Positions 3,878 through 60,988 of a DNA stretch of 64,000 bases are shown here, piece after piece (the stretch's first letter is position 1; each line of letters opens with the position of its first letter). Source of the stretch: Nonlabens tegetincola (GTDB taxonomy: Bacteria; Bacteroidota; Bacteroidia; Flavobacteriales; Flavobacteriaceae); contig NZ_MQVV01000010.1 in the NCBI RefSeq assembly GCF_002954355.1, positions 248,001-312,000 of the forward strand. The letters run 5' to 3'. The notes beneath the pieces were generated by a model. That model made no database searches. It saw nothing but the letters and a program-made list of their open reading frames with translations, and was not told the origin of the DNA. A program made the position numbers and the translations under genes.

Positions 3878-5395
3878 TTATTCTAATATAGATATAGCAG
3901 TTTTTAGCCTAGAAATTGTTTCATTTTTACCTATCATAGAGGCTATTTCAAAAACATCTGGACCCATTAGACTACCTACTAAAGAAAGTCGCATAGGCAT
4001 CATTATTTTACCAAATCCTAGTTCGTTGCTCTTCATCCATCCTTTAATTGAATCACTCAATCCAGATGCGGTATCATCATCAGTTTTTTCAATGACCTCA
4101 ATTAACTGATTCATTAAATCGCTAGTAGATTCTTTCCAAGCTTTTCTAGCATTTTTCTCATCAAATTCTTTCGGCGCTTCAAAAAAGAACCCTGCAAGTT
4201 CAAATAGATCATCTAAAAACACTGCTCTTTCTTTCACTAGACCAACTACTAGATTAACGTAATCCTGTGATCCATAGTTAATATTTTTTGATTGTAACGC
4301 TTTCGCGAAAGCGGCACCTATAACAGCATCATCTTGTTCAACAAAATATTGTTGCTGGAACCATTTAGCCTTATCTGGATCAAACTTGGCGCCTGAACTA
4401 TTTACTTGAGAAAGATCAAATTGTTCTATAAGTTCATCTAGCTTAAATAATTCTTGTTCGGTTCCAGGATTCCAACCTAAAAAGGCTAGCATATTTATAA
4501 CCGCGCTAGGCAGGTAACCATCTTCTCGGTATCCATTGAAAGTTTCATTTTCCTTATCATCATGCCATTCTAAAGGAAATACAGGAAAACCGAATTTTGC
4601 TCCATCTCGTTTACTTAACTTCCCTTTACCAGTTGGTTTAAGTATGAGAGGTAAATGAGCAAAAGATGGAATTTGCCATCCAAAGCTTTCATACAGCAAT
4701 ACGTGTAATGCCATACTAGGTAACCATTCTTCACCGCGTATCACATGTGTGATTTGCATGTTGTGATCATCCACAACATTGGCTAGGTGATAAGTAGGCA
4801 TACCATCACTTTTAAATAAAATTTTATCGTCTAATAGACTGGTATCTATTTGGATTCCTTTACGTATCTCATCAAATAAACCAAGGTTTTTTATTTGTGG
4901 TTTAAACCTTATTACATAGTCCTCACCGTTATCTAGTCGTTGTTGTACTTCTTCTGGTGTAAGTGTAAGTGAGTTGGTAAATTGATCTCGAGTTCTGTGA
5001 TTGTAGATGAAGTTCTTCTTTTGAGACTCTGCGGTAGCGCGTGCTTCATTCAATTCTTGCGCTGTGTCAAATGCATAATAAGCAGCTCCTTTTTCAATAA
5101 GTTCTAGAGCGTATTGTTTATAGGATTCTTTTCTTTCACTTTGTCTATATGGACCAAAGTTACCTTCTTTTCCTATTCCTTCATCAAATGGAATCCCACA
5201 CCAGTTTAAAGCATCTATGATGTACTGTTCTGCTCCTGGAACATATCTGTTTTGATCGGTATCCTCAATCCTTAGGATAAATGTTCCTTTATGTTTTTTT
5301 GCAAATAAGTAATTGAATAATGCGGTTCTCACTCCACCTATGTGAAGTGGTCCAGTCGGGCTAGGGGCAAATCTTACTCTAACTTCTTGACTCAT
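3878..5395 (-). CDS. gltX: Glutamate--tRNA ligase
   Basis: 505 residues, the full length of a bacterial GluRS. The class I signature is at the N-terminus (PSPTGPLHIGG, residues 11-21, HIGH-type). The KMSKS-type loop GKGKLSKRDG is near residue 258 and is followed by the helical anticodon-binding C-terminal half. It charges tRNA-Glu in the cytoplasm. GlnRS is also encoded (1-614), so a misacylating GluRS/GatCAB route to Gln-tRNA is not required here. The repeat palindrome at 4298-4313 encodes AFAKA near residues 362-366, in the anticodon-binding part. TATCTTTG 24 bases upstream is a likely promoter -7 box. Confidence 0.97.
   Translation of the reverse strand: MSQEVRVRFAPSPTGPLHIGGVRTALFNYLFAKKHKGTFILRIEDTDQNRYVPGAEQYIIDALNWCGIPFDEGIGKEGNFGPYRQSERKESYKQYALELIEKGAAYYAFDTAQELNEARATAESQKKNFIYNHRTRDQFTNSLTLTPEEVQQRLDNGEDYVIRFKPQIKNLGLFDEIRKGIQIDTSLLDDKILFKSDGMPTYHLANVVDDHNMQITHVIRGEEWLPSMALHVLLYESFGWQIPSFAHLPLILKPTGKGKLSKRDGAKFGFPVFPLEWHDDKENETFNGYREDGYLPSAVINMLAFLGWNPGTEQELFKLDELIEQFDLSQVNSSGAKFDPDKAKWFQQQYFVEQDDAVIGAAFAKALQSKNINYGSQDYVNLVVGLVKERAVFLDDLFELAGFFFEAPKEFDEKNARKAWKESTSDLMNQLIEVIEKTDDDTASGLSDSIKGWMKSNELGFGKIMMPMRLSLVGSLMGPDVFEIASMIGKNETISRLKTAISILE
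4298..4313. repeat. 16-bp palindrome CGCTTTCGCGAAAGCG, copy 1 (in gltX)
   Basis: Exact copy. Read in the gltX frame it gives AFAKA. Confidence 0.95.
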
Positions 5396-5418
5396 TTTGT
5401 ATGCAGTTTTATAGGCTG

Positions 5419-5426
5419 CAAAGATA
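5419..5426 (-). promoter_or_regulatory. -7 promoter element for gltX
   Basis: CAAAGATA on the plus strand reads TATCTTTG on the minus strand, a perfect TAnnTTTG match, 23 bases from the gltX start codon. No convincing -33 TTTG was found. Confidence 0.5.
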
Positions 5427-5465
5427 GTTAGTCTAAAGAGAGTAAATAGTTAGGTTTTAGGTAAA

Positions 5466-6689: not shown

Positions 6690-9600
6690 ATGACTAACTT
6701 TCAAATAATACAAAAGAAATTAACTCAATTTATTAGTAAGTACTATCGTAATGAATTGATTAGAGGAGTCATTCTTTTTGCTGCTCTTAGTTTGTTGTAT
6801 TTTCTATTTACTGTGGTAATCGAGCATTTTTTATGGCTTAGTACTGTAGGACGCACCATATTGTTTATTCTATTTGTAATTGTACAATCTTTTTTATTGT
6901 TCAAGTTTGTAGGTATTCCTTTAGCTCGTTTATTCAAGCTTTTTAAAGGAATTGATTTTAGGGATGCAAGTACCATTATAGGAACTCATTTCCCTGAGGT
7001 ATCTGATAAACTTGTAAATGTTTTACAATTACATAAAAATGGAGGTGACGATGAATTGACGTGGGCAAGTATTAATCAAAAAAGTGAAGAACTTAAACCT
7101 ATACCTTTTTCACTTGCCATTGATTATAAAAAGAACTCCAAGTATTTAAAATATTTAGCTATTCCGCTTGTTATAATTGTAGGACTTTTCTTTACCGGTA
7201 ATGATGAGGTGATTACAAAAAGCGCATCACGTGTAGCCGATTTTAATAACGAATATATTCCACCTGCTCCTTATTCATTTAAATTACTTAATGATGATTT
7301 AAGTACATTACAAAATCAAGATTATAAAATTAATGTTCAAGTTGTAGGTAAGAAATTACCTGAATCTGTTTCCATAAGCTATAAGGGTCAAAATTATTTT
7401 ATGAATCAAGATAAAAACGGTAACTACAGTTACGTTTTTAAAAGACCTAGTAGTGACATTGATTTTTTCTTTAATGCAAATGAGGTTGCAAGCCCTAGTT
7501 ATCAACTCAAGGTAGGTGCTGTACCATCTATAGATCAATTCAATATGGTGTGCAGGTTTCCTTCACACATAGGTCGCACTTCTGAAACTATTAAGGGTAC
7601 AGGAAACGCTCTTTTACCAGAAGGTACTCGCGTGCAATGGATCTTGAATACCAGTAATACTCAAGTAGTAGACTTCATTAATGGTGATGATACTTATAGT
7701 TTTAAAAAGCAGGATAATCAGTTCGCTTTCGCGAAAGCGATATCACAACCTACTTCATATGCTATTTCCACCTCTAATTCTAATACTAAAAATTACGAAA
7801 CACTCAATTTTAAAATCGATGTTGTAAAGGATGAATATCCTGAATTGAAGGTGGAAGAAAAGGTCGATTCTTTAAATGAACAAATAAGATATTATAAAGG
7901 TCAGGTTGTGGACGACTACGGCATTAAAAAGATAGTATTGAACTACTATATTCAAGATGATCCCGCAACCGTTAAGAAATTAGTGATAAGTAAAGATAGA
8001 GGATCCTATGAAACGTTTTTATATACCTTTCCTCAAGGTCTTGAACTATTAGAAGGTAAACGTTATGAATATTATTTTGAAGCTTTTGATAATGACGTGG
8101 TAAATAACTTTAAAAGCGTTAAGTCTCAGGTCTATGGTTATCGAAAAATAACCAATAATGAACAGGAACAACGTGAATTACAAGAGCAAAAGGAATCGTT
8201 AGAAAGTATAGAGAAATCCTTAATGGATCAGGAAAAACAGCAGGAAAAACTCAAGGAATTAAGTCGTGAAGCGGTTGAAAAGAAAGATCTAGATTTCAAT
8301 GACCGCAAAAAACTAGAACAGGTCTTAGATAAGCAGCAGAAGCAGGAACAGTTAATGAATAGACAGTTGGATCGATTAAAAAACAATTTGGAAAAATCCA
8401 TAAGAGAAGAATCAGAAGAAAAGGAGGCGCTAAAAGAAAGAATGGAACAAAGTGCCGATCAAATTAAGAAGAATGAAGAACTCTTAAAAAAGATCCAAGA
8501 GTACAAGGACAAGATGCCGCCTGCTGAGCTAAAGGAACAATTAGATAAGGCACAACGCAACTCAAAACAACAGCAACGTAGTCTTGAACAATTATTAGAG
8601 TTAACTAAAAGATTTTATGTCAAGGAGAAATTCAAGCAATTAGCCAAAGATTTATCTCAAATAGCCTTAAAGCAGAAGAAGGCTGCAGATGTTGAATCTT
8701 CAGAACAAGAACAAGATAGTTTAAATAAAGAATTCCAAGAATGGAGAAAGGAACTCGAGGAACTTGAGAAGGAAAATACTAATCTTAAACGTCCACATAA
8801 GTTAGAGTTTGATCCACCACAAGCTGATGAGATCGAGCAGGATCAAAACGATGCTAAAGAAAATATTGAATCTAAAGAGTCTCAAAAGGCATCATCCAAA
8901 CAACGTAGTGCTGCAGATAAGATGAAACGACTATCTCAACAAATGGGCAATCAAATGCGCAGCATGGAAAAGGATCAAATGATGGAGGATGCGGAAACCT
9001 TAAGACAAATTCTAGATAATTTGATAGGTTATAGTCTGGAGCAGGAAGCTTTAATGGACCAAGTTTCATTGATAAATAGAAATAGCCCAAGCTTTGGAAA
9101 AAAATTAATCATGCAAAAAAAGTTAGAATACACCTTTGAGCATGTAGATGATTCTTTGTTTGCTTTAAGTAGCCGTAATCCGAAGGTTGGTGAAGAAATA
9201 AATTCTGTTATCACCGATATTCATTATGGTATAGATACAAGTATGGAGCAATTGGCAGAGTTCAAAATAGAGCGCAGTTTAATGGCGCAACAAGAGGCGT
9301 TTTCAGGTGCCAATAAATTAAGCGCTATGTTAAGTGATGCCATGGATAATATGAATGCTTCTGGATCAAGTGGTCCTGGACAACCAAGTCCTGGTGAAGG
9401 CGGTGCTGGTTTTCAACTTCAGGACATTATACAGAAACAAGAAAGCTTAAGTAGAAAAGGTAAAGGAGATAAATTAGGAAAACAAGGTCAACAAGGACAA
9501 CAAGGTCAGCAAGGTCAATCGGGCAATGCTGGTGAAAATGGTCAAAGCGGTCAAAGCGGTCAATCTGGTAGTGGTGGTGAGCAAGGTGAAAATGGTCAGT

Positions 9601-15131: not shown

Positions 15132-16313
15132 ATGACAATTAACGATATCAATTTCAAAGACAAAAAGGCTCTAGTAAGAGTAGATTTCAATGTTCCGTTA
15201 GACGACAATCTTAATGTAACCGATACCACTCGTATTGAGGCAGCAAAAGACACTATTATTCATGTGCTAGAAAATGACGGTGCTGTGATTTTAATGTCAC
15301 ACCTAGGACGTCCTAAAAATAATGAGAATGAATTTTCTTTAAAACATGTTGTAGAAAAAGCTAGCGACATTTTGGGAGTCCAGGTCAAATTTGCCGAGGA
15401 TTGTGTAGGGCAAAGTGCTATTCAAGCTGCTCAAGACCTTCAAAGCGGCGAGGTTCTTTTATTAGAAAATTTGAGATATCATGACGAGGAGAAAGCTGGT
15501 GATTCCGCTTTCGCGAAAGCGCTATCTCAATTAGGCGATGTGTACATTAACGATGCATTTGGAACAGCTCATAGAGCACATGCTAGTACCGCTATAATTG
15601 CACAGTTTTTTGAGGAGAAATGCTTTGGTTTTTTAATGAATCGTGAAATTGAAAACCTCAATAAAGTATTAGAAACCCCAGAAAGACCATTGCTAGCAAT
15701 ATTAGGCGGTGCCAAGGTGTCTTCAAAAATTACAGTGATAGAAAATATTTTACAAAAAGTAGATCATTTGATAATCGCTGGTGGAATGGCTTATACCTTT
15801 ATAAAAGCCCAAGGAGGAAAAATTGGAAATTCATTGGTTGAGGACGATAAGCAAGAACTAGCTCTTGAAATTCTTAAAAAAGCACAAGAACACAATACAC
15901 AAATTCATTTACCAGTGGATGTTTTAATGGCTGACGATTTCAGTGAAACAGCTAATAGAAAAGAGGCTGCCATTGATCAAATACCCGATGGTTGGATGGG
16001 ATTAGACATAGGTGAAAAAACACAACAGCAATTCCATGATTTAATACAGAAAGCACAAACTATATTGTGGAACGGTCCTGCTGGAGTATTTGAAATGCAA
16101 GCCTTTGCTCAAGGGACCAAAGCACTAGGTGATGCTATTGCAGTAGCTACTAAAAACGGTGCATTTTCTCTTGTTGGTGGTGGTGATTCTGTTGCTGCAG
16201 TTAAACAATTTGGCTATGCCGATAAGGTGAGTTATGTATCAACAGGTGGTGGCGCTATGTTAGAATTACTAGAAGGTAAAACATTACCTGGTATCGCTGC
16301 TATAGTAGACTAG
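15132..16313 (+). CDS. pgk: Phosphoglycerate kinase
   Basis: 393 residues, full length. The N-terminal signature [12 protein letters not shown] starts at residue 16. The mid-protein GGAKVSSKI begins the nucleotide-binding domain and the C-terminal GGGDSVAAV contacts ATP. It makes ATP from 1,3-bisphosphoglycerate in glycolysis, or runs in reverse in gluconeogenesis. The palindrome at 15506-15521 encodes AFAKA (about residues 126-130) just before the conserved [11 protein letters not shown], a surface helix where AFAK-type residues are natural. mltD-like and DUF4837 genes follow on the same strand. Confidence 0.98.
15506..15521. repeat. 16-bp palindrome, copy 3 (in pgk)
   Basis: Exact copy; read as AFAKA. 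Confidence 0.95.
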
Positions 16314-16346: not shown

Positions 16347-17915
16347 ATGCGATCTAGAATATTAGGAACTTGTTTATCCATCATAGGGATGGTTATTTTA
16401 CATGCACAGCAACCAGATTCGGTTGCTGTGAAAAGCAAGGTGTTTACCTATGAAGAATACAAACAAAAACAAAGCGTAAAAGATTCCCTTAAAACAGACT
16501 CTCTTAAAGTAGAATCAACCACAGTAACCAATACTGTTATTCCTATTCTTGAGGTAGAAGATGGATCTGGATTAAAGGAATATCCTGAGGTAGATGAGTT
16601 TGATGAGAATTTATTAGAAGAATTGTACAACAATGATTTGTACGATTATATGTATGATGATTTTGTAAATCTGGATGATGCAGCTATCGTTAAACAAGTA
16701 GTACCTACCGACACTCTAAAAGCAAGATTAAAACGCATTAATGCTACAACACCTTTTAACATAGAATATAATCCTATACTGGAAAAGCTTATCAATAAAA
16801 AGCTTAGTTATAGACGAGTTTATCTGGAGCGATTAATGACTTTAAGCGACTATTACTTTCCTATGTTTGAGGAGCAGCTGGATCAATATGACATACCATT
16901 GGAGATGAAGTACCTTGCAGTGGTAGAAAGTGCACTAGATGCCAAGGCAAAAAGTAGAGTAGGAGCTACTGGAATGTGGCAATTTATGTTTGCTACAGGG
17001 CGCAATTATGGACTTGAGGTAAATAGTTACGTTGATGAGCGCATGGATCCAGAAAAAGCTACCGTTGCAGCTTGTAAATTTTTACGTAGCTTGTATAATA
17101 TCTATGGTGACTGGGACTTAGCTTTGGCTGCCTATAATTCTGGACCAGGTAATGTTAACAAGGCAATAAGACGTAGCGGCGGATATAGAAATTACTGGAA
17201 TTTACGTCCCTATCTTCCACGTGAAACAGCTGGATATGTTCCAGCATTTCAAGCGATGTTATATCTGTTTACCTATGCCAGCGAGCACGGTTTTAAACCA
17301 TTACAAAATGAACACAGATCTATAGTTACAGATTCTGTTCAGGTTAAAAAGATGATTGCTCTAGAACACGTGGCACAGTTCACAGATCAAGATATTGAAG
17401 TAGTTCAATTTCACAATCCTAGCTATAAATTGGATCTCATTCCCGTGGTTGAAGGACGTAAGTATTATTTAAGATTACCACTTAAAGCGATGTCTAAATT
17501 TGTGAGTAATGAGGATAGTGTTTACGCTTTCGCGAAAGCGGAATTTGATAAAAGAGAAAAACCATTACCTGAATTACTAAAGGCAGAAAGTCGTGTGGTT
17601 TATCGAGTCAAAAGTGGCGATTACCTAGGTAAAATTGCCAATAAGTATGGTGTGAGTGTGAGTAAATTGAAAAGATGGAATAATTTAAGATCTTCTAAAT
17701 TACGGATAGGACAAAAATTATATATCCATCCTAGACGACCAGTTGCTACTATACCGGTCTCTCAGAACAATACCTCGACTACTCATAAAGTGAAAAGTGG
17801 AGATAGTTTGTGGACAATTGCTAGAAAATATGGTACTTCGGTACGCAATTTGAAGAAGCTTAATCCAGATAAAACCGAGAACTTAAAACCAGGTATGGTT
17901 CTTAAGTTGAAATAA
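16347..17915 (+). CDS. mltD: Membrane-bound lytic murein transglycosylase D-like protein with two LysM domains
   Basis: 522 residues. A signal peptide (about 1-20, ending ILHAQ) and an acidic linker lead to a lysozyme-like SLT domain (about 165-290) with the catalytic-Glu motif LAVVESALDAKAKS and GATGMWQFM, and AAYNSGPGNVNKAI. Two LysM peptidoglycan-binding repeats lie at about 417-460 and 478-521. It cleaves glycan strands in the periplasm with 1,6-anhydro product formation. The palindrome at 17525 encodes AFAKA in the linker before LysM 1. Unlike E. coli MltD no lipobox is evident. Confidence 0.92.
   Translation: MRSRILGTCLSIIGMVILHAQQPDSVAVKSKVFTYEEYKQKQSVKDSLKTDSLKVESTTVTNTVIPILEVEDGSGLKEYPEVDEFDENLLEELYNNDLYDYMYDDFVNLDDAAIVKQVVPTDTLKARLKRINATTPFNIEYNPILEKLINKKLSYRRVYLERLMTLSDYYFPMFEEQLDQYDIPLEMKYLAVVESALDAKAKSRVGATGMWQFMFATGRNYGLEVNSYVDERMDPEKATVAACKFLRSLYNIYGDWDLALAAYNSGPGNVNKAIRRSGGYRNYWNLRPYLPRETAGYVPAFQAMLYLFTYASEHGFKPLQNEHRSIVTDSVQVKKMIALEHVAQFTDQDIEVVQFHNPSYKLDLIPVVEGRKYYLRLPLKAMSKFVSNEDSVYAFAKAEFDKREKPLPELLKAESRVVYRVKSGDYLGKIANKYGVSVSKLKRWNNLRSSKLRIGQKLYIHPRRPVATIPVSQNNTSTTHKVKSGDSLWTIARKYGTSVRNLKKLNPDKTENLKPGMVLKLK
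17525..17540. repeat. 16-bp palindrome, copy 4 (in mltD-like gene)
   Basis: Exact copy; read as AFAKA in the inter-domain linker. Confidence 0.95.
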
Positions 17916-21765: not shown

Positions 21766-22473
21766 TTGAATAATTTCCTAGATCTCATATTTTCCGATGT
21801 AAACAGCATCCTTACGGTTTTAATTATACTACTAGCTATCTATTGGATTCTTACTGCAATAAGCGGTGTAGACTTTGATTTAGACGTAGATATTGACATA
21901 GATGTGGATGCTGATATGGATCTAGATATTGATACTGTAGATCCAGGAAATATCGAGTTTGGTGATGTTGCAAGTTCCGAGGTGCAAAAGGAACACGTCG
22001 TTAACAAAGGAACCAGACGTCTTAAATGGTGGCAAATTGTTTTGATTTATTTCAATTTTGTAGGATTACCATTTATGTTCACTTTCACCTCATGGATATT
22101 TGTATGGTGGATATGTACCCTACTAGCAACAGATATTACAGGTACTGAAAATAATACGATTGGTTTCTTATTTATGCTAGCCTTACTTATTCCTAGCTTA
22201 TTCCTTAATAAATTATTTACTACACCATTTAAAAGCTTCTTTGCAAAACTTAATAAAAATGGTGACGTACCAGTAGATTTTTTGGGACGTACTGCAACTT
22301 TACTTAGCAGTATTTCAGGTGAAAAATTAGGTAATGCTGAGGTGGTCGTAGATGGAAACCCAATGAGTATCTATGTGAAATCTTTAGATGGTTCGCTATT
22401 AAGCTTTCGCGAAAGCGTGCTCATAATCAAGCAATCCCAGGATAAAAATTACTATTACGTGAGTAAAGAATAA
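21766..22473 (+). CDS. NfeD/YqiJ-like membrane protein with OB-fold tail and alternating-Asp segment
   Basis: 235 residues with a TTG start (no ATG is available upstream of the first helix). Membrane helix (about 14-33), then residues 36-58 alternate Asp with hydrophobics (DFDLDVDIDIDVDADMDLDI), then two more helices (about 95-118 and 125-145) and a C-terminal OB-like domain (about 160-225, VDFLGRTATLLSS). YqiJ/NfeD proteins pair with flotillins (E. coli yqiJ-yqiK, B. subtilis yuaF-yuaG), and the next gene here is a flotillin. The Asp-alternating strand may bind divalent cations, which is an inference. The palindrome at 22402 is read in the SFRES frame. Confidence 0.75.
   Translation: MNNFLDLIFSDVNSILTVLIILLAIYWILTAISGVDFDLDVDIDIDVDADMDLDIDTVDPGNIEFGDVASSEVQKEHVVNKGTRRLKWWQIVLIYFNFVGLPFMFTFTSWIFVWWICTLLATDITGTENNTIGFLFMLALLIPSLFLNKLFTTPFKSFFAKLNKNGDVPVDFLGRTATLLSSISGEKLGNAEVVVDGNPMSIYVKSLDGSLLSFRESVLIIKQSQDKNYYYVSKE
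22402..22417. repeat. 16-bp palindrome, copy 5 (one mismatch, in NfeD/YqiJ-like gene)
   Basis: AGCTTTCGCGAAAGCG: first base A instead of C, inner 14-bp palindrome intact. It is read as SFRES, not AFAKA. Confidence 0.85.
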
Positions 22474-24682: not shown

Positions 24683-24690
24683 CACTATAT

Positions 24691-27800: not shown

Positions 27801-29702
27801 CAGCTAAGTCAGGAGATTAAAAATAAATACAACCAGATTATTAAACGTGCTGGTCACGTATTGCAAGTATTTCCTAATAGTGATAACCACATTTTTGTTA
27901 TAGATCAACTCATAATTGAAATTACAAATAGCAATCAAACGGCTATAACAATTATCGAAAAGCAAAGTGATTTTAACGAGCACATAAAGCAAATGGCGAC
28001 CTATTTATTTTATGAGCTCAAGGACAATGATCATTTTGTTGTGAGTCAAAATGCTATAGATCTACAAAATTCATTTGAAAAAACACTGCAATCTCAAAAT
28101 GCCTACACACAATTCAATAGAGCGCTAGATGAGTGTGATACTCAAAAGGATAAAGTTGACACGGTGCGTCATTGGGTTTCCGCTTTCGCGAAAGCGGAAC
28201 AACCACAATCTTTACAATACCACATTGAAGAATGTGTGGCACACATGCTCTATGGGTCAAGCGCTGAGGTGGTAAACAGCATAAATGCTACCCAAACCAT
28301 AACTAATCTCAAAGGCACGCATAGTACTATTATCGATGGAGAATTTGAGTTTAATTACCACAGATTTGTAGCCTTATTAGATGATTATGTTAAGTATAAA
28401 GTACCAGCTTATGAGATGTTTAAAAAAACAAAGCATCAAGTAACCGAGGACCTAAAAAGCCAACTAAGACTAGAAGAATTTAAACCAAGAGTACTTAGCA
28501 GTTTTGTGCGTAATAAATTGATCAATCAGGTTTATTTTCCATTAATAGGAGATAATTTATCCAAACAATTAGGGACAGTAGGTGATTCAAAACGTACTGA
28601 TCGCATGGGAATGCTGCTACTCATATCGCCGCCAGGATACGGTAAAACCACACTTATGGAATATGTGGCAAATCGATTGGGATTAATTTTCATGAAAATT
28701 AATGGACCAGCGATAGGTCATGAAGTAACTAATGTGGATCCAGAAGCGGCAACCAATGCGGCAACTAGAGAAGAACTTAAAAAGCTTAACCTAGCTTTTG
28801 AAATGGGCGATAATGTGATGTTATACCTAGACGATATCCAGCATTGTAATCCAGAATTCCTGCAAAAATTCATAAGCCTGGCTGATGGTACAAGAAAAAT
28901 AGAAGGTGTGTTTAACGGCAAACCCAAAACCTATGACTTAAGTAGTAATAAGTTTTGTGTGATTATGGCTGGTAACCCATATACGGAGAGTGGTGACAAA
29001 TTCCAAATACCAGACATGCTCGCAAACCGTGCAGATATCTATAACCTAGGTGATATCATAGGAGATACGGCTCATTTGTTTGAATTATCATTGATTGAGA
29101 ATGCGCTTACTAGTAATCCAGTACTACAACAATTAAGCAACAAACATTTTGATGATGTTTATGCTTTATTAGATAGAGTAGAGAATGGCGCGGCAGATAA
29201 TGAACTTAAAGGCAATCACAGCAGTCAAGAATTAGCCGATTATGAAGCTGTTTTGGAAAAGGTGGTTCGTATAAGAGATACGGTTCTCAAGGTAAATGAA
29301 ACCTACATTTCTAGTGCTGCGATGGACGATGCTTACCGCACAGAACCTAGTTTTAAACTACAAGGTTCTTATAGAGACATGAATAAACTAGTGGCCAAAA
29401 TTGTTCCTATCATGGATGATAAAGAACTTACCACATTGTTGCTGTCACATTATGAAAGTGAATCCCAAACACTCACTACTGCCGCCGAGGCCAATTTGTT
29501 AAAGTATAAAGAACTTACAAGTACCCTTTCTAGTGAAGAGCATGATCGATGGAATAGCATTAAGGAAACCTTTTTAAAGAACAACAAACTTAAGGGACTA
29601 GGGAATGACCAATCCATGGCTCAAATCCTATCTCAAATGATGGAATTTACCGATAATTTAGAAGGGATTAAAGAGGTGCTGAGGAATGGTTTGAATAAGT
29701 AA
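24807..29702 (+). CDS. Giant DUF3686-type AAA+ ATPase ('DNA repair ATPase' family by annotation habit)
   Basis: 1,631 residues. The N-terminus is helical (about 15-60). A beta-rich region follows (about 65-480), then a long coiled coil (about 500-860), a middle helical region, and a C-terminal MoxR/dynein-like AAA+ module: Walker A PPGYGKTT (about 1274), Walker B VMLYLDDIQ (about 1336-1344) and sensor-1 VIMAGNPY with FQIPDMLANRADIYNL (about 1380-1410). The layout fits DUF3686 proteins often labelled DNA-repair ATPases without experimental support. Placement behind PspA-flotillin genes argues instead for a membrane-stress remodelling ATPase. The palindrome at 28181 gives AFAKA near residue 1126. 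Confidence 0.75.
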   Translation: MATTPKDTTQLDSGTYEIIQSRLQKQKSDLQQRLSRLNEARKKVFGSLETRLIANDRINTENNCIAQDIIALGNTCIFGYNVHFGLRTQIQLSDVFSIYTFEKVDGEVSFRASEIGLQLLDDAVFKTDFENLYKYYRNTVFTKFAIMGNYLHMVFQLSDSVTDIKTFKWLINGEHLEYVDNRSEHEYKFPSQYGFQWVQAGRDDQRYGEHAHVSIKDKVFVETIGGDLTIKVEDNTSDGLGIYNEPVEHRDQTLDDGQYRFADLGNLIILEIKPFQEQPRYFVYNHKIQSVEKIDSISQAAVLLPDDQGIIFPSGYYLQTGEYNVFPGDVGSLKFQQRVASPNGEDHLYIFYNQEKGIYVLMAYNVIEQQVQTPIICNGFTLLEGGELAYFRTEDEQTKHHMMQIWQTPFLKGDVLPSEHQDTLLFKIGNKDIVKAMAESNELITLLNKEDSYEGLYDDIARASKDVIDAYYWLNEEETQQLSIPLKEINKAANAAVDEFEKVKQLRKQAAKETQSISKKSEELFNKIKSTSFKSIQDFVHLLTQLRTLRGEVISLNEIRYTDDAFIEEKEQQIVEQNELISRRAVTFLLQDTALSPYHQAVEEKQEQLEKVDKVIDIKQLEKEVNQIAEDLELLIDIVSNLKIEDTSHSTKIIENISLIFATINQLKAALKNKIKAVGKKEAQADFAAQLKLVDQSIINYLDIADTPEKCDEFLTKISITLEELEGKFADFDEYITTIIEKREEVYAAFDSRKNSLVEARNKKAISLQNAANRIIKGAQKRAQSLASTIEINGYFASDLMINKVRDIIKQLQELDDAGKAESLETALKSSREDALRKLKDKQELYEDGENIIKLGQHKFGVNKQQLDLTIVYKNDSLYYHLTGTDFYQKLNNEILEQSRSLWDQELVSENHDVYRSSYLAYTIFQSQDTEQLAQSSEADLLQQVQQIASQNYAGGYVKGVHDHDAAAILNVLVQKHHDLELLRFTPKVRAHAQLFWQQLSQEIKNKYNQIIKRAGHVLQVFPNSDNHIFVIDQLIIEITNSNQTAITIIEKQSDFNEHIKQMATYLFYELKDNDHFVVSQNAIDLQNSFEKTLQSQNAYTQFNRALDECDTQKDKVDTVRHWVSAFAKAEQPQSLQYHIEECVAHMLYGSSAEVVNSINATQTITNLKGTHSTIIDGEFEFNYHRFVALLDDYVKYKVPAYEMFKKTKHQVTEDLKSQLRLEEFKPRVLSSFVRNKLINQVYFPLIGDNLSKQLGTVGDSKRTDRMGMLLLISPPGYGKTTLMEYVANRLGLIFMKINGPAIGHEVTNVDPEAATNAATREELKKLNLAFEMGDNVMLYLDDIQHCNPEFLQKFISLADGTRKIEGVFNGKPKTYDLSSNKFCVIMAGNPYTESGDKFQIPDMLANRADIYNLGDIIGDTAHLFELSLIENALTSNPVLQQLSNKHFDDVYALLDRVENGAADNELKGNHSSQELADYEAVLEKVVRIRDTVLKVNETYISSAAMDDAYRTEPSFKLQGSYRDMNKLVAKIVPIMDDKELTTLLLSHYESESQTLTTAAEANLLKYKELTSTLSSEEHDRWNSIKETFLKNNKLKGLGNDQSMAQILSQMMEFTDNLEGIKEVLRNGLNK
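28181..28196. repeat. 16-bp palindrome, copy 6 (in AAA+ gene)
   Basis: Exact copy; read as AFAKA. A degenerate relative (three mismatches) is at 25131-25146 in the same gene. Confidence 0.95.
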
Positions 29703-33952: not shown

Positions 33953-35225
33953 TAAACAGCGCACTAAAAATACTTATCCACAAGGCGCTGAAGGTGATAC
34001 CATCATAACGGATTAAAAAATCATCGGTAAGATTTGAGGTGAAGAACAATACAAAGAAAAACAGAACAACGCTGTGCTGTAATCTCCAGCCTAGCCACAA
34101 AATATTAAGTACATAAAGAAGCACCGCAAGCAATCCTAATAAACCAAATTTGAGTAAGAAATCTAAGTACTGGTTGTGAGTAGGAAATTTATACTTGGCT
34201 AGAAACTGCTGATTAGTATCCAGGTAGGCCTGATTAAGCTCGTCCTTGCCATCTGCAGCGCCTACACCTATCCAAATATCTTGTTGAGCTCTTTCCCAGG
34301 CTGTTTTCCAAATACTTACACGAGTTACAAAACTATTGAATACCTCACCTTCTGGGTTTTCAAAATCATCAAGTTTACCTACTTTATCCATGTGAGCAAA
34401 GGTGACGGTGGTATACTTTTTTGTGATGTAAGGAAACGCTTTCGCGAAAGCGAACACCATTAAAATCAATACTGCCAGTGTACTGGCTGTGACAGTTACC
34501 AGTTTCTTGCGTGATACCTTTTTAAACAATTCTAAAAACAAAACTAAAAATATACCGATAAATGCATTTGCGACGGCAAGCCTAGTATTGATAATAAGAA
34601 GCAGAAATACAGAAATTAAAAATAATAGAGTCCTATAATTAAGGATTTTCCAGCTAGATTCGATCAAGTATCTTATAGCGAGATAGGTGTTTACAACTAC
34701 TAGAAAAGCCACATGCAAGTTGAGAGCTGGCGCATGAACACCGGTGCTATTTGCAAAAGAATAACCCATTTCCCATAGGTGAATACCTTTCAAATATTTT
34801 GAAACGAGTTCGGGCTCAATAATTAGGAATCTTATTAATAGAACGACTAGTAAACATGTGAATAATATGGAGTAGTAGGTAAGTACTTTTTTAAAATTGA
34901 TTTTAATAGGTGACCCTATAAGAACAACAGGAAATAACAACATACTCATTCGTTTTTCCATGTGTTTAAATCCTTCTGATAGTTCAACATTGTTCCACAG
35001 GAATAGTACATCCAGTAGAAATGGTAAGGCGATCAAACCAATTTTCCAAAATGAATTTTTAGAAAATTTAAAAGATCTTGCGATTAACAGGTGACTTACT
35101 ATAAAAAGAATGATAGCAATAGTCCCAGGTTTCCTAAACACTAGTATACTAGCTAGAATTCCTATTAATAACTCATAATTATTAAGATACCAAGACCTAG
35201 TTGTTTTTAGCCAATTTGAAAACAT
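33906..35225 (-). CDS. O-antigen ligase / polymerase-type membrane protein, second copy
   Basis: 439 residues and about ten to twelve membrane helices. The periplasmic loop contains RVSIWKTAWERAQQDIWIGV and then FPTHNQYLDFLLKFGLLG, the ligase-superfamily signature. The palindrome at 34437 encodes AFAKA in a loop just after a membrane helix (about residue 258-262). The 3' end overlaps the convergent GT4 gene by 47 bases. The 5' end overlaps the previous gene by 29 bases, showing translational coupling in the run 37569 to 33906. Confidence 0.8.
   Translation of the reverse strand: MFSNWLKTTRSWYLNNYELLIGILASILVFRKPGTIAIILFIVSHLLIARSFKFSKNSFWKIGLIALPFLLDVLFLWNNVELSEGFKHMEKRMSMLLFPVVLIGSPIKINFKKVLTYYSILFTCLLVVLLIRFLIIEPELVSKYLKGIHLWEMGYSFANSTGVHAPALNLHVAFLVVVNTYLAIRYLIESSWKILNYRTLLFLISVFLLLIINTRLAVANAFIGIFLVLFLELFKKVSRKKLVTVTASTLAVLILMVFAFAKAFPYITKKYTTVTFAHMDKVGKLDDFENPEGEVFNSFVTRVSIWKTAWERAQQDIWIGVGAADGKDELNQAYLDTNQQFLAKYKFPTHNQYLDFLLKFGLLGLLAVLLYVLNILWLGWRLQHSVVLFFFVLFFTSNLTDDFLIRYDGITFSALWISIFSALFIKNDCSTSQSIEKSS
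34437..34452. repeat. 16-bp palindrome, copy 8 (in ligase-like gene)
   Basis: Exact copy; read as AFAKA. Confidence 0.95.
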
Positions 35226-39587: not shown

Positions 39588-40123
39588 AATTGAGATAGAT
39601 ATGGAGCAGCACTATCTTTTTCAGAAAGGACGACATCCTTTTCTGGTATTTGCCAATCAATAGCAAGCTGTGGATCATCGTATCTTACTGCAAGTTCGGT
39701 TTCAGGTTGATAAGTATTGTCAATTTGATAGTTCACAATCGCAGTTGATGAAAGTACCGAGAAACCATGTAAAAAGCCTCTAGGGACATATAATTGCTTG
39801 TTGTTTTCTGCACTCAATTTGATTGCAAAATGTTTCAAATAGGTTGGAGAATCTACCCTAAAATCTACAGCAACGTCTAATATCTCACCTTGCACACAAC
39901 GTACTAGTTTTGCCTGTGCAGCATCTCCTTTTTGTAAGTGTAAACCTCGAATAACGCCATAGGTTGAGGTACTCTCATTAATTACAATAAACGGGTTGGA
40001 TTGAGGTAACGCTTTCGCGAAAGCGAGACTATCAAAAGCAACAACAAATTTACCACGCTGGTCACCATACACAGCTGGCTCGATAACTTTACAATCCTTT
40101 AATGACGTTTCTTTTACTATCAT
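39584..40123 (-). CDS. rfbC: dTDP-4-dehydrorhamnose 3,5-epimerase
   Basis: 179 residues of the cupin-type epimerase family. The catalytic-His segment is GVIRGLHLQKG (about 53-63), followed by LVRCVQGEILDVAVDFR and YVPRGFLHGFSVLS. It epimerises C3 and C5 of dTDP-4-keto-6-deoxyglucose in the dTDP-rhamnose pathway. Start and stop overlap the neighbours by 4 bases, giving a tight wzz-rfbC-rfbD unit. The palindrome at 40010 encodes AFAKA (about residues 33-37) in the N-terminal strand region. Confidence 0.95.
   Translation of the reverse strand: MIVKETSLKDCKVIEPAVYGDQRGKFVVAFDSLAFAKALPQSNPFIVINESTSTYGVIRGLHLQKGDAAQAKLVRCVQGEILDVAVDFRVDSPTYLKHFAIKLSAENNKQLYVPRGFLHGFSVLSSTAIVNYQIDNTYQPETELAVRYDDPQLAIDWQIPEKDVVLSEKDSAAPYLSQL
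40010..40025. repeat. 16-bp palindrome, copy 9 (in rfbC)
   Basis: Exact copy; read as AFAKA. Confidence 0.95.
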
Positions 40124-41245: not shown

Positions 41246-42949
41246 TTACAGACTTTCCTCCATGATTTGTTCTAGGATTTTTTCGGTAATCACATATACC
41301 GGTTTTACTCCTAGTAAACCTAATCCACCACTTGCAAGAGTATGACCTGTTTTTAAAGGATTATCACTTGCATAGTAGGCATATCTTACTTTTACATCAC
41401 GATTTATACTTCTACGTACCTGTGATGCAGACTGCACAGCTTTTTGGTAATGAGCACCTTCCATTTCTAGACCTATAACTCTCCAACTACTGGTGTGAAA
41501 AAACTCTAGTAAATCTTTGTTTTGTAGCGAGGTTCCTAGAACGGTAACCATACTTCCACTTACTATATTAATGCCATCTTCTTGTAAATCTTCTTCTGTA
41601 AGTTGATTTTCAAAAGGATAATTATCTGCTGTTCCTTCAAAAACATGAGCATCAGGTATCATGATGTCACCTTTATCACCGGTAAGAATACCTGCTTTAC
41701 CCATTACATTAACGGATTTGACATTCATCTTGTGCTTAGTTCCGTTTTCATCGGTATACGGTTTAAGCAATTCATCCATCGTCTCAAATGCTTGCTCACC
41801 AAAGGCATAGTCCATTACGACAAGAACTGGTTTTGTGCTGTTATCGCTTTCGCGAAAGCGTACTGAACAAAAATCAACGTCCATGTAAGCACATTCACTG
41901 GTATCAAATATCTGCACATCGATATTAGTACCACTAGTATCTTTAAGTTCATACATACCATTGGTAACGGCATGTTTTTTTATACGGTCACGCAGGTTTT
42001 TATTTGCCTCGTCACTGAGTTTTGCAAAAAGAGACATGCGGTCAGTGTCTTTAAGCTGTTTTTGTAGGGCTTTTGGACCGTACAAGGAATTCATGACACT
42101 GTGCAAGTTGGCACTTATTATATGAATAGGTCTTTCGAATAAATTGTTATCGACTAAAAATTGCTTGATACGAGACGCCCAAATATCTCCATGGATGTGA
42201 TGACCCAATCGTTCTCTAAGAACAGGAGAAAAGGTAATCAACCGTTTTTGCTCATCCAGAATTTCTTTTCTGGCAAGTGCTCCCATGTGATAAATTATAC
42301 TGAGGAAGCGATTAGGATTATCAACTGTTGCAAATTTAGGATAGGTACTTTTCACCTCTTTAAAGGTTCTACCTAGAATGGTAGCGACGTGCGTCATTGC
42401 AATATCTTTCTCCTCTTGAGAAAGTTTCTTCTTTGTAACAGCATTTTCTAGACATTGCCAGTCTCTTGTAGTTTGTTTGTTCTCACCTACCATTACTTGC
42501 TTCATGATTTTATGAGATTCTATCATGAGAAAAGTAAGGTGAGTAAGTATGTCATAAATCTCTGATCTGCCACGAGTAACCTCAATATTCATTTGGTGAT
42601 CGTCGATACGATAGCAATTACGTCTACGTTTAAGAGGAATTATAGGCTTAAAATGACTTTGCTCATAACCTTCATTACTGGTGAGATTGATGTAAGTACA
42701 CTCTTCAATCCCTACAGGTAAACGATCCATAACATACAGTAAACCATCTAGTTCTACCTTTTCATCGGCGATGGATCCATAGATTTCAGGTTTTAGTGTA
42801 AGGAGTGATTCTCTTAACGATTCACCACTCACACCCATAGGTTTGTAAAATCCACGATTGAATAAATGTCTCATTGTGATGTACATGCGTTCAATCGCAT
42901 TAGTACTTTCTTGAGCCTTAGTACGTGGTTGAATTTGGAATGATGCCAT
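41246..42949 (-). CDS. Conserved protein of unknown function with phosphorylase-like C-terminal part
   Basis: 567 residues, soluble. The N-terminal half (about 1-300) is helical with no motif I know; I recall a Bacteroidota family DUF6909 of this size but cannot verify it. The C-terminal third looks like the nucleoside phosphorylase/nucleosidase fold: VMGKAGILTGDKGDIMIPD, then EGTADNYPFEN, ...GSMVTVLGTSLQN, and GLEMEGAHYQKAV, whose EMEG matches the ribose-binding Met-Glu of that superfamily. The palindrome at 41845 is read as RFRES. TATCTTTG 15 bases upstream is a likely promoter. Confidence 0.55.
   Translation of the reverse strand: MASFQIQPRTKAQESTNAIERMYITMRHLFNRGFYKPMGVSGESLRESLLTLKPEIYGSIADEKVELDGLLYVMDRLPVGIEECTYINLTSNEGYEQSHFKPIIPLKRRRNCYRIDDHQMNIEVTRGRSEIYDILTHLTFLMIESHKIMKQVMVGENKQTTRDWQCLENAVTKKKLSQEEKDIAMTHVATILGRTFKEVKSTYPKFATVDNPNRFLSIIYHMGALARKEILDEQKRLITFSPVLRERLGHHIHGDIWASRIKQFLVDNNLFERPIHIISANLHSVMNSLYGPKALQKQLKDTDRMSLFAKLSDEANKNLRDRIKKHAVTNGMYELKDTSGTNIDVQIFDTSECAYMDVDFCSVRFRESDNSTKPVLVVMDYAFGEQAFETMDELLKPYTDENGTKHKMNVKSVNVMGKAGILTGDKGDIMIPDAHVFEGTADNYPFENQLTEEDLQEDGINIVSGSMVTVLGTSLQNKDLLEFFHTSSWRVIGLEMEGAHYQKAVQSASQVRRSINRDVKVRYAYYASDNPLKTGHTLASGGLGLLGVKPVYVITEKILEQIMEESL
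41845..41860. repeat. 16-bp palindrome, copy 10 (in 567-residue protein gene)
   Basis: Exact copy; read as FRES (frame differs from the AFAKA frame). Confidence 0.95.
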
Positions 42950-48253: not shown

Positions 48254-48902
48254 TTTTGTATGTCTTTAATACTGTTTTAATTACGTGTGTTACACTAGGT
48301 TCTTCAGCTACTATTACCGTTTTAAAGAAATTTCTAGCAGCTGTTGCTGTCGTTTCTCCTATACAAATTGCAGTAGAGGTATTTGTTGAGTTCGCTTTCG
48401 CGAAAGCGTAAACACCACGAGGACTGTAACACAAAACGACGTCAAAAGTACAACTGAAGCTTTTTTTCACCATAATTGTATCATAGACATAAATCTCGTT
48501 ATACGATATTTTATTGTCGGTTAAGGTATCGGGAAGCTCATTCCGTCGATGAGGTGATGTTAGATAATCAAACTTAGTATTGTGGTAGTGTGCGCAAATG
48601 TGGTGAGCAAGCTCTTTTGCATTATGATGAGTGACAACAACGTTATAACCATTTTCTTGAAGTAAGGATGACGTGTTTATTCCTACACAGTAACAAGAAA
48701 CTAATTGTGAATCATAATTCTTTTTAAGAAAAGGAATGGCATTTTGTGAGGTAATGATAATATGATTATTTCTTAAAGAAACTCTAGGTGAAAGCAGTAC
48801 CTTTTTTAAAGGTTCTAAATCAACGACGTTGTCAAATATATCAAGGAGCTGATTTTTGTGTTCATTAGAAAGGCTTTTTAGAGATAGAATTCTTGATTTC
48901 AT
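48246..48902 (-). CDS. hemD: Uroporphyrinogen-III synthase
   Basis: 218 residues from ATG 48902; an earlier TTG at 48911 is less likely. HemD proteins are poorly conserved, but this has the two-lobe pattern ([38 protein letters not shown]; ...[15 protein letters not shown]) and precedes hemE. It closes the tetrapyrrole ring. The palindrome at 48393 encodes AFAKA immediately after the conserved FSPRGV-type motif. The usual hemA-hemC genes upstream are absent; a divergent Crp-type gene is there instead. Confidence 0.9.
48393..48408. repeat. 16-bp palindrome, copy 11 (in hemD)
   Basis: Exact copy; read as AFAKA. Confidence 0.95.
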
Positions 48903-56898: not shown

Positions 56899-56901
56899 TT
56901 T

Positions 56902-57618
56902 ATGGATTGGGTATCTCGCATTAAGTCAGGTAGATCGTTAGCCATTTTAATTGATCCAGAAAAGACTGCTGTTGATTACGCTTTCGCGAAAGCGATATCT
57001 AAAAAAGCATTTTCTTTAAAAAAGAAATTGAACCTAAATGAGGTGTTTTTCTTTATAGGAGGTAGCACTATGGAAATTGATCTAGATAAATGGTTAAAGG
57101 AATTTAAAGGTCTAGTTACGCTACCTGTAATTATTTTTCCTGGATCTCACGAGCAAGTCTCTATTCATTGTGACGCCTTGCTGTATTTACAATTCATGAG
57201 CAGTCGCAATGCGCAGTACCTCATTGAAGAACAAATTAAAAGTGCACTTTTCATAAAACAACATAAGATAGTTACCATCCCTACATCTTATTTACTGATT
57301 GATGGAGGAAAGTCTACAGCTGTACAACGTGTTACGAACTCACAACCCTACAAGCAAACAGATATAGAATTAATCACAGCGACAACGGTTGCTGGAGAAC
57401 TTTTGGGGCACAAACTAGTTTATCTAGAAGCTGGTAGCGGTGCTGTCATACCTGTTGCAGCTGGTATTATTGAAAAAGTAAAGAGTAGTTGTTCACTGCC
57501 TATAATAGTAGGTGGAGGATTGCGTGATGTAAGTCAAATTGAACGAGCGTTTACTGCCGGTGCTAGTTTGTGCGTAGTAGGAACTGCGATTGAGGAAAAT
57601 GTGGAATGGATGGACTAA
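56902..57618 (+). CDS. Geranylgeranylglyceryl-phosphate synthase family protein (PcrB-like)
   Basis: 238 residues, TIM-barrel. The family start ILIDPEKT, the mid-loop YLEAGSGA and the phosphate-binding VGGGLRD near the C-terminus are clear. Archaeal members make GGGP for ether lipids; bacterial PcrB makes heptaprenylglyceryl phosphate; the enzyme of Flavobacterium johnsoniae is known to have GGGP-type activity. Substrate chain length cannot be read from sequence. The palindrome at 56979 encodes AFAKA (27-31). Confidence 0.88.
   Translation: MDWVSRIKSGRSLAILIDPEKTAVDYAFAKAISKKAFSLKKKLNLNEVFFFIGGSTMEIDLDKWLKEFKGLVTLPVIIFPGSHEQVSIHCDALLYLQFMSSRNAQYLIEEQIKSALFIKQHKIVTIPTSYLLIDGGKSTAVQRVTNSQPYKQTDIELITATTVAGELLGHKLVYLEAGSGAVIPVAAGIIEKVKSSCSLPIIVGGGLRDVSQIERAFTAGASLCVVGTAIEENVEWMD
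56979..56994. repeat. 16-bp palindrome, copy 12 (in GGGP synthase gene)
   Basis: Exact copy; read as AFAKA. Confidence 0.95.
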
Positions 57619-57637
57619 GTTTGCAATAAAATCAACT

Positions 57638-59045: not shown

Positions 59046-59048
59046 CAA

Positions 59049-60590
59049 ATGAATTATACTGACTACCAAATACAACAGCTAAAAGAAAAAGGTATTTCCA
59101 TAGATCAAGTTAATGAACAAATTGATCGATTTAGAAAGGGATTTCCTAAATTAGATTTAGACAGGCCTGCTACTTTAAATGATGGGATTAATAAACACAA
59201 TGATCAGGAGCAAGCAGAGTATATATATAAATATGAACAACTAGGCGAGAACCTTGAAAAGGTGAATTTTATTCCTGCTAGTGGTGCTGCAACTAGAATG
59301 TTTAAATTTCTCCATGAATTTTTACACTCTTACAATCCTGATGAAATTAGCTTAAATGCTTATATTAATAAAACTAAGAGCGACCAGTTATTCACCTTTC
59401 TTGTCGCCCTTGAAAAATTCCCTTTTTACCGAGATATTGAACAGCAACTAAAGGCTCAAAATCCAATTTATGAAGGGTTGAAAAAGTATCAACAACAATT
59501 GGAATTCATAAAATTTCTTTTGTCTGAGAATGGTGCAAATTATGCAAGTAAACCCAAAGGTTTAATCCCATTTCATGATTATGGTAGCTATGTACGTACA
59601 GCTTTTGAAGAACACTTAAGCGAGACAGCTGGTTACGCAAGTGTTAATGATCAGGTTAAACTCCATTTTACGGTATCACCTAATCACCACAAGGACTTTT
59701 TAGATGAATTAGAAGCTATTAAGGACCACATTGAAAGAAGAGTTCAAAAGAAGCTTGTAGTAGATTTTTCGTTTCAAGATACAGCTACCGATACAGTTGC
59801 AGTAAATTTAAATAACCAGCCCATACTTGATGATAAAGGTGGTTTGTTCTTTAGACCAGCTGGGCATGGAGCATTATTAAAAAATCTGAATGCAATTGAT
59901 GCCGATCTTATTTTTATTAAAAACATTGATAATGTCACTACAACAGCAATGCATCAAGAATCTGCATATTTTAAAAAATACCTTGCAGGTATAGCAGTCA
60001 CATACAAGAAACAAATAGATTCCTATTTAAATCAATTATTAAATGGAACTATTACTGATATTTCACATATTGTAGATTTTCTAGAAAGCTCAATAGGAAC
60101 GGCTTTACCTAAGGATTTTTCAAAGTATTCCTTCCAAAATCAGATAGAAACCCTGATAGATTGTTTAAACAGACCATTAAGAGTGTGCGGTATGGTTAAA
60201 AATGAAGGAGAACCAGGTGGTGGTCCGTTTTGGGTAAAATCTAGTTACGGAATTAATTTACAAATTGTGGAAAGCGCACAGGTGAATAAAGAAAATGAGA
60301 AACAAAAAAACATTGCTAAAGAATGTACTCATTTTAATCCAGTTGATATAGTTTGCTGTGTACGTGATTATAAAGGAGATAAATTTGATCTACAAAAATA
60401 TTGTGACCCAGAAATGGGTTTTATTACCCTAAAATCTAGGTTTGGTTTTAAGCTTAAAGCACAAGAGCTTCCTGGATTATGGAATGGCTCAATGGCTTAT
60501 TGGAATACCATTTTTGTAGAGGTTCCTGTTTCTACTTTTAATCCAGTTAAAACTGTTAATGATTTACTCAAACCAGCGCACCTTAGGTAA
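59049..60590 (+). CDS. DUF4301 family protein
   Basis: 513 residues, soluble. The phrases FIPASGAATRMFK, KPKGLIPFHDYG and FRPAGHGALLKNLNAI are typical of DUF4301, which resembles nucleotidyltransferases (the GxAATRMFKxL loop looks like a sugar-nucleotidyltransferase NTP loop). Function is unproven. Starts 3 bases after the kinase stop; its stop overlaps the arfB ATG. Confidence 0.85.
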   Translation: MNYTDYQIQQLKEKGISIDQVNEQIDRFRKGFPKLDLDRPATLNDGINKHNDQEQAEYIYKYEQLGENLEKVNFIPASGAATRMFKFLHEFLHSYNPDEISLNAYINKTKSDQLFTFLVALEKFPFYRDIEQQLKAQNPIYEGLKKYQQQLEFIKFLLSENGANYASKPKGLIPFHDYGSYVRTAFEEHLSETAGYASVNDQVKLHFTVSPNHHKDFLDELEAIKDHIERRVQKKLVVDFSFQDTATDTVAVNLNNQPILDDKGGLFFRPAGHGALLKNLNAIDADLIFIKNIDNVTTTAMHQESAYFKKYLAGIAVTYKKQIDSYLNQLLNGTITDISHIVDFLESSIGTALPKDFSKYSFQNQIETLIDCLNRPLRVCGMVKNEGEPGGGPFWVKSSYGINLQIVESAQVNKENEKQKNIAKECTHFNPVDIVCCVRDYKGDKFDLQKYCDPEMGFITLKSRFGFKLKAQELPGLWNGSMAYWNTIFVEVPVSTFNPVKTVNDLLKPAHLR

Positions 60591-60988
60591 TGAATGTTGA
60601 ACAAATTAAAAACGAGGTAACATTTAAAGCTGTTGCAAGTAGTGGCCCTGGTGGTCAACACGCTAATAAGGTGGCAACAAAGGTTCAATTAGAGTTTGAT
60701 GTTATTAATAGTTACGCTTTCGCGGAAGCGGAAAAACAAACTATCTTAGAAAACCTAAAAAGTCAGCTTACTCAACAAGGCAGCATCAAAATAAGCTGTC
60801 AAGAATCTAGAAGTCAAGCTAAAAATAAAGAGCTTGTCCTTAAAAAATTAATCAATTTGCTCGCTGGCGCAAGTCAAAGAAAAAAGAAGCGTAAGAAGAC
60901 AGCTATTCCTAAAATTGCTAAGTTAAAAAGACTGAGAGCAAAGAAATTGAACAGTGAAAAAAAACAAAACCGAAAGTTTAAATATTAG
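60590..60988 (+). CDS. arfB: Ribosome-rescue peptidyl-tRNA hydrolase ArfB
   Basis: 132 residues. The class I release-factor GGQ loop is SSGPGGQHANKVATKV (18-33) and there is a strongly basic C-terminal tail (QRKKKRKKTAIPKI...KKQNRKFKY) that enters the empty mRNA channel. It frees stalled ribosomes without a stop codon. The variant palindrome at 60715 encodes AFAEA. Its stop lies in a terminator hairpin. Coupled to DUF4301. Confidence 0.95.
   Translation: MNVEQIKNEVTFKAVASSGPGGQHANKVATKVQLEFDVINSYAFAEAEKQTILENLKSQLTQQGSIKISCQESRSQAKNKELVLKKLINLLAGASQRKKKRKKTAIPKIAKLKRLRAKKLNSEKKQNRKFKY
60715..60730. repeat. 16-bp palindrome, copy 13 (one mismatch, in arfB)
   Basis: CGCTTTCGCGGAAGCG; one substitution (A to G) breaks the perfect palindrome and turns Lys to Glu (AFAEA). 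Confidence 0.8.

Follow-up and report, generated by a model that had tools for sequence, protein, structure and literature searches.

A 16-bp palindrome iterated across Nonlabens genomes, possibly the core of a regularly spaced site for a dimeric DNA-binding protein

The window analysed here, a 64,000-nucleotide stretch of the Nonlabens tegetincola genome, carries a perfect 16-bp palindrome, CGCTTTCGCGAAAGCG, in 11 exact and two one-mismatch copies, together with one further match at three mismatches at position 25131. These 14 matches at up to three mismatches compare with a mean of 0.10 and a largest count of 1 in 100 dinucleotide-preserving shuffles of the window. A preliminary description had placed all 11 exact and two one-mismatch copies correctly, and its naming of gltX, pgk, hemD and rfbC as word-bearing genes agrees with Pfam, while the GC content that it gave as about 36% is measured at 34.7%. 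Its remark that the word never occurs twice in one gene holds within the window and fails genome-wide, one outer-membrane efflux gene of the same genome (L317) containing two exact copies. The sites are as follows (a dot indicates that no strand is assigned; G numbers denote compared genomes):

4298..4313, strand., exact word in gltX (frame AFAKA), footprint ~4281-4330; exact, with the same codons, in G394, G242 and G010
7724..7739, strand., exact word in a 1151-aa ORF (6690-10145); exact in G394 and G010, 1 mismatch in G242
15506..15521, strand., exact word in pgk; same codons in G394, G242, G010, G206 and G190, and 6-8 mismatches in 7 aligned word-poor genomes
17525..17540, strand., exact word in an SLT/LysM gene; exact in G394, G242 and G010, 1 mismatch in G190
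22402..22417, strand., one-mismatch word in ORF 21766-22473, which has no Pfam match; exact in G242
28181..28196, strand., exact word in a DUF3686 AAA gene; exact in G242, 1 mismatch in G010
31490..31505, strand., exact word, intergenic, flanked by two - strand ORFs
34437..34452, strand., exact word in an O-antigen ligase-like gene; exact in G010, the G242 and G394 rows being too distant (24-25% identity) to be informative
40010..40025, strand., exact word in rfbC (dTDP-sugar epimerase); exact in G010, G242 and G394
41845..41860, strand., exact word in a DUF6909 gene (frame RFRES); exact in G394, eroded in G010 and G242
48393..48408, strand., exact word in hemD; orthologue not found in the fetched stretches of the compared genomes
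56979..56994, strand., exact word in a PcrB-family gene; orthologue not found in the fetched stretches of the compared genomes
60715..60730, strand., one-mismatch word in an RF-1-domain gene

Alignment of the window sites with three congeners returned 17 exact words out of 21, at a flank identity of ~72%. At 4298, 7724, 15506 and 17525 the word-poor orthologues possess the homologous segment without the word. As read from these alignments, the copies at the four sites are substitutions in place, which upholds there the earlier view that the word is unlike a mobile repeat; an insertional origin as a mobile palindromic element (RPE, REP or MITE) is ruled out at these four testable sites.

The genome of origin (3.03 Mb, an assembly of 21 contigs) contains 464 exact copies and none of the reversed control word. 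Thus, the word is not limited to these 64 kb, and the proposal of a genome-wide, strongly selected signal is confirmed, with presence in the whole genus and conservation in place. All 23 Nonlabens genomes carry it, at 180-737 copies each, and among 397 Flavobacteriaceae genomes just six exceed 100 copies, namely four Nonlabens, G206 (probably Dokdonia sinensis) and G190. In an unrooted four-gene tree of 13 genomes, G206 and G190 fall together (83), and the word-poor group is recovered at 61. Four-mismatch neighbours are fewer in the genome of origin than for shuffled palindromes (4 vs ~20), and 200 kb of G206 and of G190 contain 18 and 13 of them, respectively. To our knowledge, few exact words as long as this one recur throughout bacterial genes. 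Plasmid and phage records searched with a 46-nt consensus gave weak matches only (E 0.8 or worse), and the word is absent from two Nonlabens phages. A test near highly expressed genes yielded four motif matches, too few loci for a result. A 12-bp palindrome, TTCCACGTGGAA, was found 2-3 times in stretches of G007, G087, G130 and G032; its role as a substitute word there is disfavoured, since its resemblance to what we take to be parS fits better. Such parS-like sites are present separately from the word.

Considering that degenerate copies are few (in 464 kb of the genome of origin, 80 exact copies are accompanied by 23 with one, 5 with two and 1 with three mismatches) and that half-sites and inner subwords occurring elsewhere stay near Markov expectation, the whole 16-bp palindrome is the unit. 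Nonetheless, the motif is really ~50 bp long and dyad-symmetric, not 16 bp alone. Across 255 sites (165 coding, 72 intergenic and 18 edge), each strand is G-poor for ~17 nt 3' of the palindrome (G 5-10% vs ~18% further out), in all three classes of site, with A peaks at +2, +3, +6, +9 and +12, and its 5' flank is T/G-rich with a 3-nt periodicity. At intergenic positions, A was found at +6, +9 and +12 in 259/432 cases versus 353/864 at neighbouring positions. The flanks are weaker in G190. The two flanks do not covary consistently, so the word is not part of a longer hairpin, and 58 of the 80 exact sites lie inside ORFs and therefore do not form a promoter set; an intrinsic terminator or RNA hairpin is ruled out on these same two observations. 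Selection on the encoded peptide is likewise ruled out, the word being used in three frames.

Spacing of the word is regular in Nonlabens, far more so than that of control words or of E. coli Chi. The coefficient of variation (CV) is 0.51 for exact copies in the genome of origin, falling to 0.43 when copies with up to two mismatches are included, and three congeners range from 0.30 to 0.47 on 15-19 sites per genome, while for 1000 7-mers taken from this DNA as controls the mean is 1.01 and the lowest value 0.71, and E. coli Chi, sampled over 200 kb, is randomly placed (CV 1.04, mean spacing 4.4 kb). Near-miss copies occupy the gaps between exact ones: the mean distance to the closest exact copy is 4.2 kb for the 28 near misses and 2.05 kb for random points, and 0 of 5000 simulations attained the former. 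The CV reaches 0.59 in G206 (minimum spacing 411 bp) and 0.81 in G190, and in G397 gaps of 34 and 20 kb separate exact copies among the places listed. Depletion near the terminus, a check that the preliminary description had named, is not seen in G190, where 8 terminus-proximal stretches contain 26 sites, 7 origin-proximal ones also 26 and the 16 lying between them 58 (3.25 sites per 20 kb for the terminus vs 3.7 for the origin), so terminus exclusion is rejected for this genome.

Copies on a copper island were compared between hosts at 30 loci with two sites each. From these 60 positions, 9 with at least 5 of 16 bases different were dropped (one in G394; in word-poor hosts, seven first-site and one second-site positions), leaving 7 and 44. 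All 7 are exact in word-using hosts versus 17 of the 44 in word-poor hosts (Fisher 0.003, with rows that are not independent). Judged from these alignments, copper-island copies erode more in hosts lacking the word system. Several were eroded synonymously with AFAKA retained (e.g. L314, L315, L329-L331), which also contradicts peptide selection. The word also tags DNA that has left word-rich genera.

In our tentative reading, given a probability of about 0.42, the word is read by a putative dimeric DNA-binding protein that is confined to this lineage and acts along the whole chromosome in a manner dependent on spacing; we infer both the dimeric reader and its architectural job. The word would be the core of a ~50-bp dyad-symmetric double-stranded site, and the putative protein, restricted to Nonlabens, Dokdonia and a third genus, would occupy such sites along the chromosome every ~3-6 kb in fairly regular fashion and serve a structural function for which spacing matters, for instance folding the nucleoid or anchoring loops. 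This architectural reading is supported by (i) the genome-wide presence, (ii) the requirement for the whole palindrome, (iii) the symmetric footprint, (iv) the regular spacing in the genus, (v) the positional conservation, and (vi) the erosion in hosts without the system. Against it stand the less regular spacing and weaker flanks of G190, with G206 intermediate, the long gaps listed for G397, the need for RNA polymerase to pass a tight 50-bp complex in genes such as pgk, the 17 of 44 copper-island copies still exact in word-poor hosts, and the fact that biased DNA uptake could yield many of these patterns. No binding protein was found either: a ParB-family search (PF02195) of the genome of origin gave one match, and a Noc-like ParB paralogue as reader of the word was thus rejected. 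It is rather doubtful that the word acts as a chromosome ruler, with the dimeric protein on a 50-bp site every 3-6 kb, the spacing itself mattering and integrated mobile DNA, in the form of a conjugative-type island and a temperate phage, carrying sites at host density. Such a ruler would amount to a chromatin lattice coded in sequence and phased at regular intervals, and we know of no bacterial system like it.

Among the guesses previously offered, a nucleoid- or segregation-protein site is favoured over an uptake sequence because of the dyad symmetry and the lattice-like spacing. An uptake or self-recognition signal, by which word-bearing DNA would be preferred in transformation and copies multiplied by biased uptake and recombination, is unlikely, even though it would account for the hundreds of near-exact copies, their presence in both coding and non-coding sequence and their flank preference, and for a word carried by integrated mobile DNA, missing from the two phages and eroding elsewhere. 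According to part of one source (PMC7965970), Riemerella, which it assigns to Flavobacteriaceae, shows competence, with R. columbina favouring its own DNA. Excerpts of another (PMC1939737) describe significantly even spacing for uptake sequences too, but take those of H. influenzae and Neisseria to be spaced less evenly than a compaction signal would be, and the latter sequences, unlike the word, are not palindromic. Partial words are also not enriched, and the type IV pilus/T2SS ATPase (PF00437) exceeds the cut-off in one of six word-rich genomes (G242, the genome of origin being negative) and in 0 of 14 word-poor ones, although flavobacterial competence may do without this pilus-type motor.

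A Chi-like site redirecting an AddAB-type nuclease-helicase, effective from both sides as a palindrome, is decidedly improbable. PF12705 PD-(D/E)XK genes of AddB/AddA-like size, putatively AddAB on domain and size only, pass the cut-off in 20/20 genomes, the density of one word per 4-6 kb resembles that of E. coli Chi, and the T/G-rich periodic 5' flank would suit RecA loading, given its presumed preference. On the contrary, those genes are equally present in word-poor genomes, single-strand half-words are not enriched, the full palindrome being required, and Chi is short, non-palindromic, read as one strand and, in the E. coli sample, randomly spaced. Other cell-level uses of a dimeric protein (nucleoid occlusion, segregation or regulation) would share the dyad symmetry of parS, Noc (NBS) and SlmA (SBS) sites, palindromes of ~12-16 bp for a dimeric protein, and are quite unlikely in view of the absent terminus depletion in G190, the single ParB-family protein in the genome of origin and the intragenic location of most sites. 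Highly improbable is the HIP1-like word previously suggested, here taken as associated with either a restriction enzyme or a methyltransferase of orphan type, as a methyltransferase site would be unusually long at 16 bp plus flanks. HIP1 (GCGATCGC) is likewise a palindrome highly iterated across a clade, the cyanobacteria, in coding and non-coding DNA, as part of one source states (PMC4390886). It is nonetheless another octamer, which the window lacks altogether (0 copies), and away from the word itself the inner subwords show no enrichment (in 464 kb, observed vs expected: TCGCGA 28 vs 26.7, CGCG 243 vs 327 and TTCGCGAA 1 vs 0.3).

If a protein does read the word, it would provide a sequence-coded handle on chromosome organization or DNA self-recognition in Bacteroidota, and three word-rich genera amid word-poor relatives constitute a natural experiment. 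Regarding known systems, the DUS/USS of Neisseriaceae and Pasteurellaceae share with the word hundreds of near-exact copies, a flank preference, tolerance within genes and lineage specificity, whereas the word is palindromic, lattice-like in the genus and borne by a genome without a pilus ATPase above the cut-off. Chi offers a similar density, of one per ~4-5 kb, and AddAB-like genes, and differs in length, symmetry and its random spacing in the E. coli sample. HIP1 resembles the word as a clade-wide, highly iterated palindrome of open function in coding and non-coding DNA, while the word is a 16-bp core in a 50-bp footprint, lattice-like in spacing and with inner subwords unenriched elsewhere. 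Finally, Noc, SlmA and parS sites are likewise palindromes for a dimeric protein, putative in the present case, whereas the word occurs in several hundred copies, with no terminus gap in G190 and no ParB paralogue found.

The 16-bp palindrome (the word) was recovered in the window as 11 exact and two one-mismatch copies, bearing out the counts of the preliminary description, together with a three-mismatch copy at 25131, which carries several Gs in its 3' flank and was left out of the site count; in shuffled window DNA, 0.10 copies are expected at 0-3 mismatches, all classes pooled. The proposed count over the full genome (3.03 Mb, 21 contigs) yielded 464 exact copies, versus none of a backwards control word. 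Within 464 kb of this genome, 80, 23, 5 and 1 copies were found at 0, 1, 2 and 3 mismatches, the corresponding means for 20 shuffled palindromes being 0, 0, 0 and 1.75. Half-words and inner subwords outside the sites were near expectation, without enrichment, indicating that the whole palindrome is read. Other features recorded in the window were:

3818-3849: 32-bp perfect AT-rich palindrome, terminator-like, between two genes
10538-10553 and 12432-12447: parS-like sites, one exact and one with 1 mismatch, that flank mnmG and suggest the region of the origin
24667-24761, minus strand: Flavo-1 RNA, score at the gathering threshold

Beyond the palindrome, the 3' side of each strand is G-poor over ~17 nt and favours AA at +2/+3, A also peaking at +6, +9 and +12, a pattern that is similar in G206 (probably Dokdonia sinensis) and weaker in G190, from one more genus. 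Counted over 34 positions of flank, disfavoured bases averaged 6.0 at random positions, 2.26 at exact sites and 2.79 at near-miss sites, and thus better flanks do not compensate for the mismatch in the latter. Flank bias was at least as strong at intergenic as at coding sites in a set of 255 distinct sites, drawn from the own genome and G206, from three congeners and from 67 of the 80 listed named loci (the other 13 loci and G190 did not contribute), after removal of duplicates and of sites near stretch ends. A crude ORF caller placed 58 of 80 sites in coding DNA and 22 in intergenic DNA, the latter making up only 7% of bases. The leading frame reads AFAKA (118/165 coding sites), and in it the preferred A positions coincide with wobble bases.

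Exact copies in the own genome are 1835 to 14441 bp apart, with a spread of spacing (CV) of 0.51; allowing up to two mismatches, the CV falls to 0.43 (mean 4292, minimum 845, maximum 9178), near-miss copies occupying gaps between exact ones. CVs were 0.47, 0.30 and 0.33 in the congeners G394, G242 and G010, 0.59 in G206 and 0.81 in G190, compared with 1.01 (SD 0.10) for control words. Density along the single contig of G190 (31 stretches) did not vary significantly with origin distance (Spearman -0.23, p 0.22), the origin being set at mnmG (~1.02 Mb), the turning point of GC skew.

The proposed check in related genera found the word abundant throughout the genus (23/23 genomes, 180-737 copies each), with more than 100 copies in only six of 397 family genomes: four of the genus (448-579), G206 (630) and G190 (153 exact; 536 when 14-mer matches with one mismatch or none are counted). 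Below these six, the highest count was 13, and 48/397 had at least one. Across the class, the 14-mer occurred in 24 of 395 genomes including the own one, none of the others exceeding 4 copies. A scan of named records matched at least 104 stretches; among the 80 loci listed, titles assign 27 to Nonlabens, 36 to Dokdonia, 4 to Flavobacteria bacterium BBFL7 and 13 to others.

Eleven coding window sites were compared, four of them having word-poor orthologues in the DNA examined; at those four the homologous segment is present and the word absent. In pgk, five word-rich relatives encode AFAKA versus xFAKx or xFAEx in word-poor genomes. Among the three congeners, 17 of 21 aligned window sites were exact.

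In word-poor genomes copies are clustered rather than spread: 16/16 (14-mer) within 78 kb of one contig in G076, 18/19 on two contigs in G287, 16/17 on two contigs in G051, and 5/7 in 10 kb in G396. These clusters include an OEP efflux gene, neighboured in G078 by CusA-like, multicopper oxidase and P-type ATPase genes. A word-bearing copper-efflux island was seen in many Flavobacteriaceae genera (L045, G076:C3:32331-110016, G287:C5:177799-239830), so that the word serves as a tracer of transferred DNA; we only infer the island to be of conjugative type. Across 30 OEP loci, alignable sites were exact in 7/7 cases in word-rich hosts versus 17/44 in others: sites erode in hosts lacking the system. 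One UViG with integrase and tape-measure genes held 4 copies over 23.9 kb, and none was present, even at three mismatches, in two Nonlabens phage records (35.7 kb each) that have no annotated integrase. Several of the 41 viral stretches matched combine high GC and poor flanks, and probably reflect chance.

A 20-bp palindrome, CCTGCCTGCCGGCAGGCAGG, had 14 copies in G206, 11 in G190 and none in G000 and G394. Among eight copies read in each, it lay inside a word or near-word in five (G206; as CGCT/TTCGCGAAAGCG or its mirror) and two (G190), others lying in a GCGAA/GGCGG repeat or in tRNA-like DNA uncalled by ARAGORN. It seems to be a small element targeting the word. Loci concerned are:

L288, L290, L292, L298, L300: G206
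L289, L295: G190

Separately, a strong T2SSE ATPase match (E 1.7e-120, G242:C8:126205-127296) was the sole one above cut-off in 20 genomes, and AddB-like and AddA-like genes lie ~357 kb apart in G000 (C10:164170 and 521166), a distance of ~5 kb in 14/20 genomes searched.

The 50-bp dyad symmetry, the need for the full palindrome and the lattice-like spacing point to a putative dimeric protein that would read a ~50-bp dyad-symmetric site along the whole chromosome, where its role would be structural. In the literature searched, mostly outside subscription papers, neither 16-mer nor 14-mer was found, nor was a highly iterated palindrome in flavobacteria reported; papers mentioning Dokdonia or Nonlabens together with palindromes were off topic, judging by title and start of abstract. 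The strongest rival to a structural protein site is a DNA uptake signal, for which the comparison draws on PMC1939737 and, regarding Riemerella, on PMC7965970. A Chi-like site is less likely, since Chi is randomly spaced (CV 1.04 for E. coli, 200 kb, 44 sites), and less likely still is methylation of the HIP1 kind (PMC4390886).
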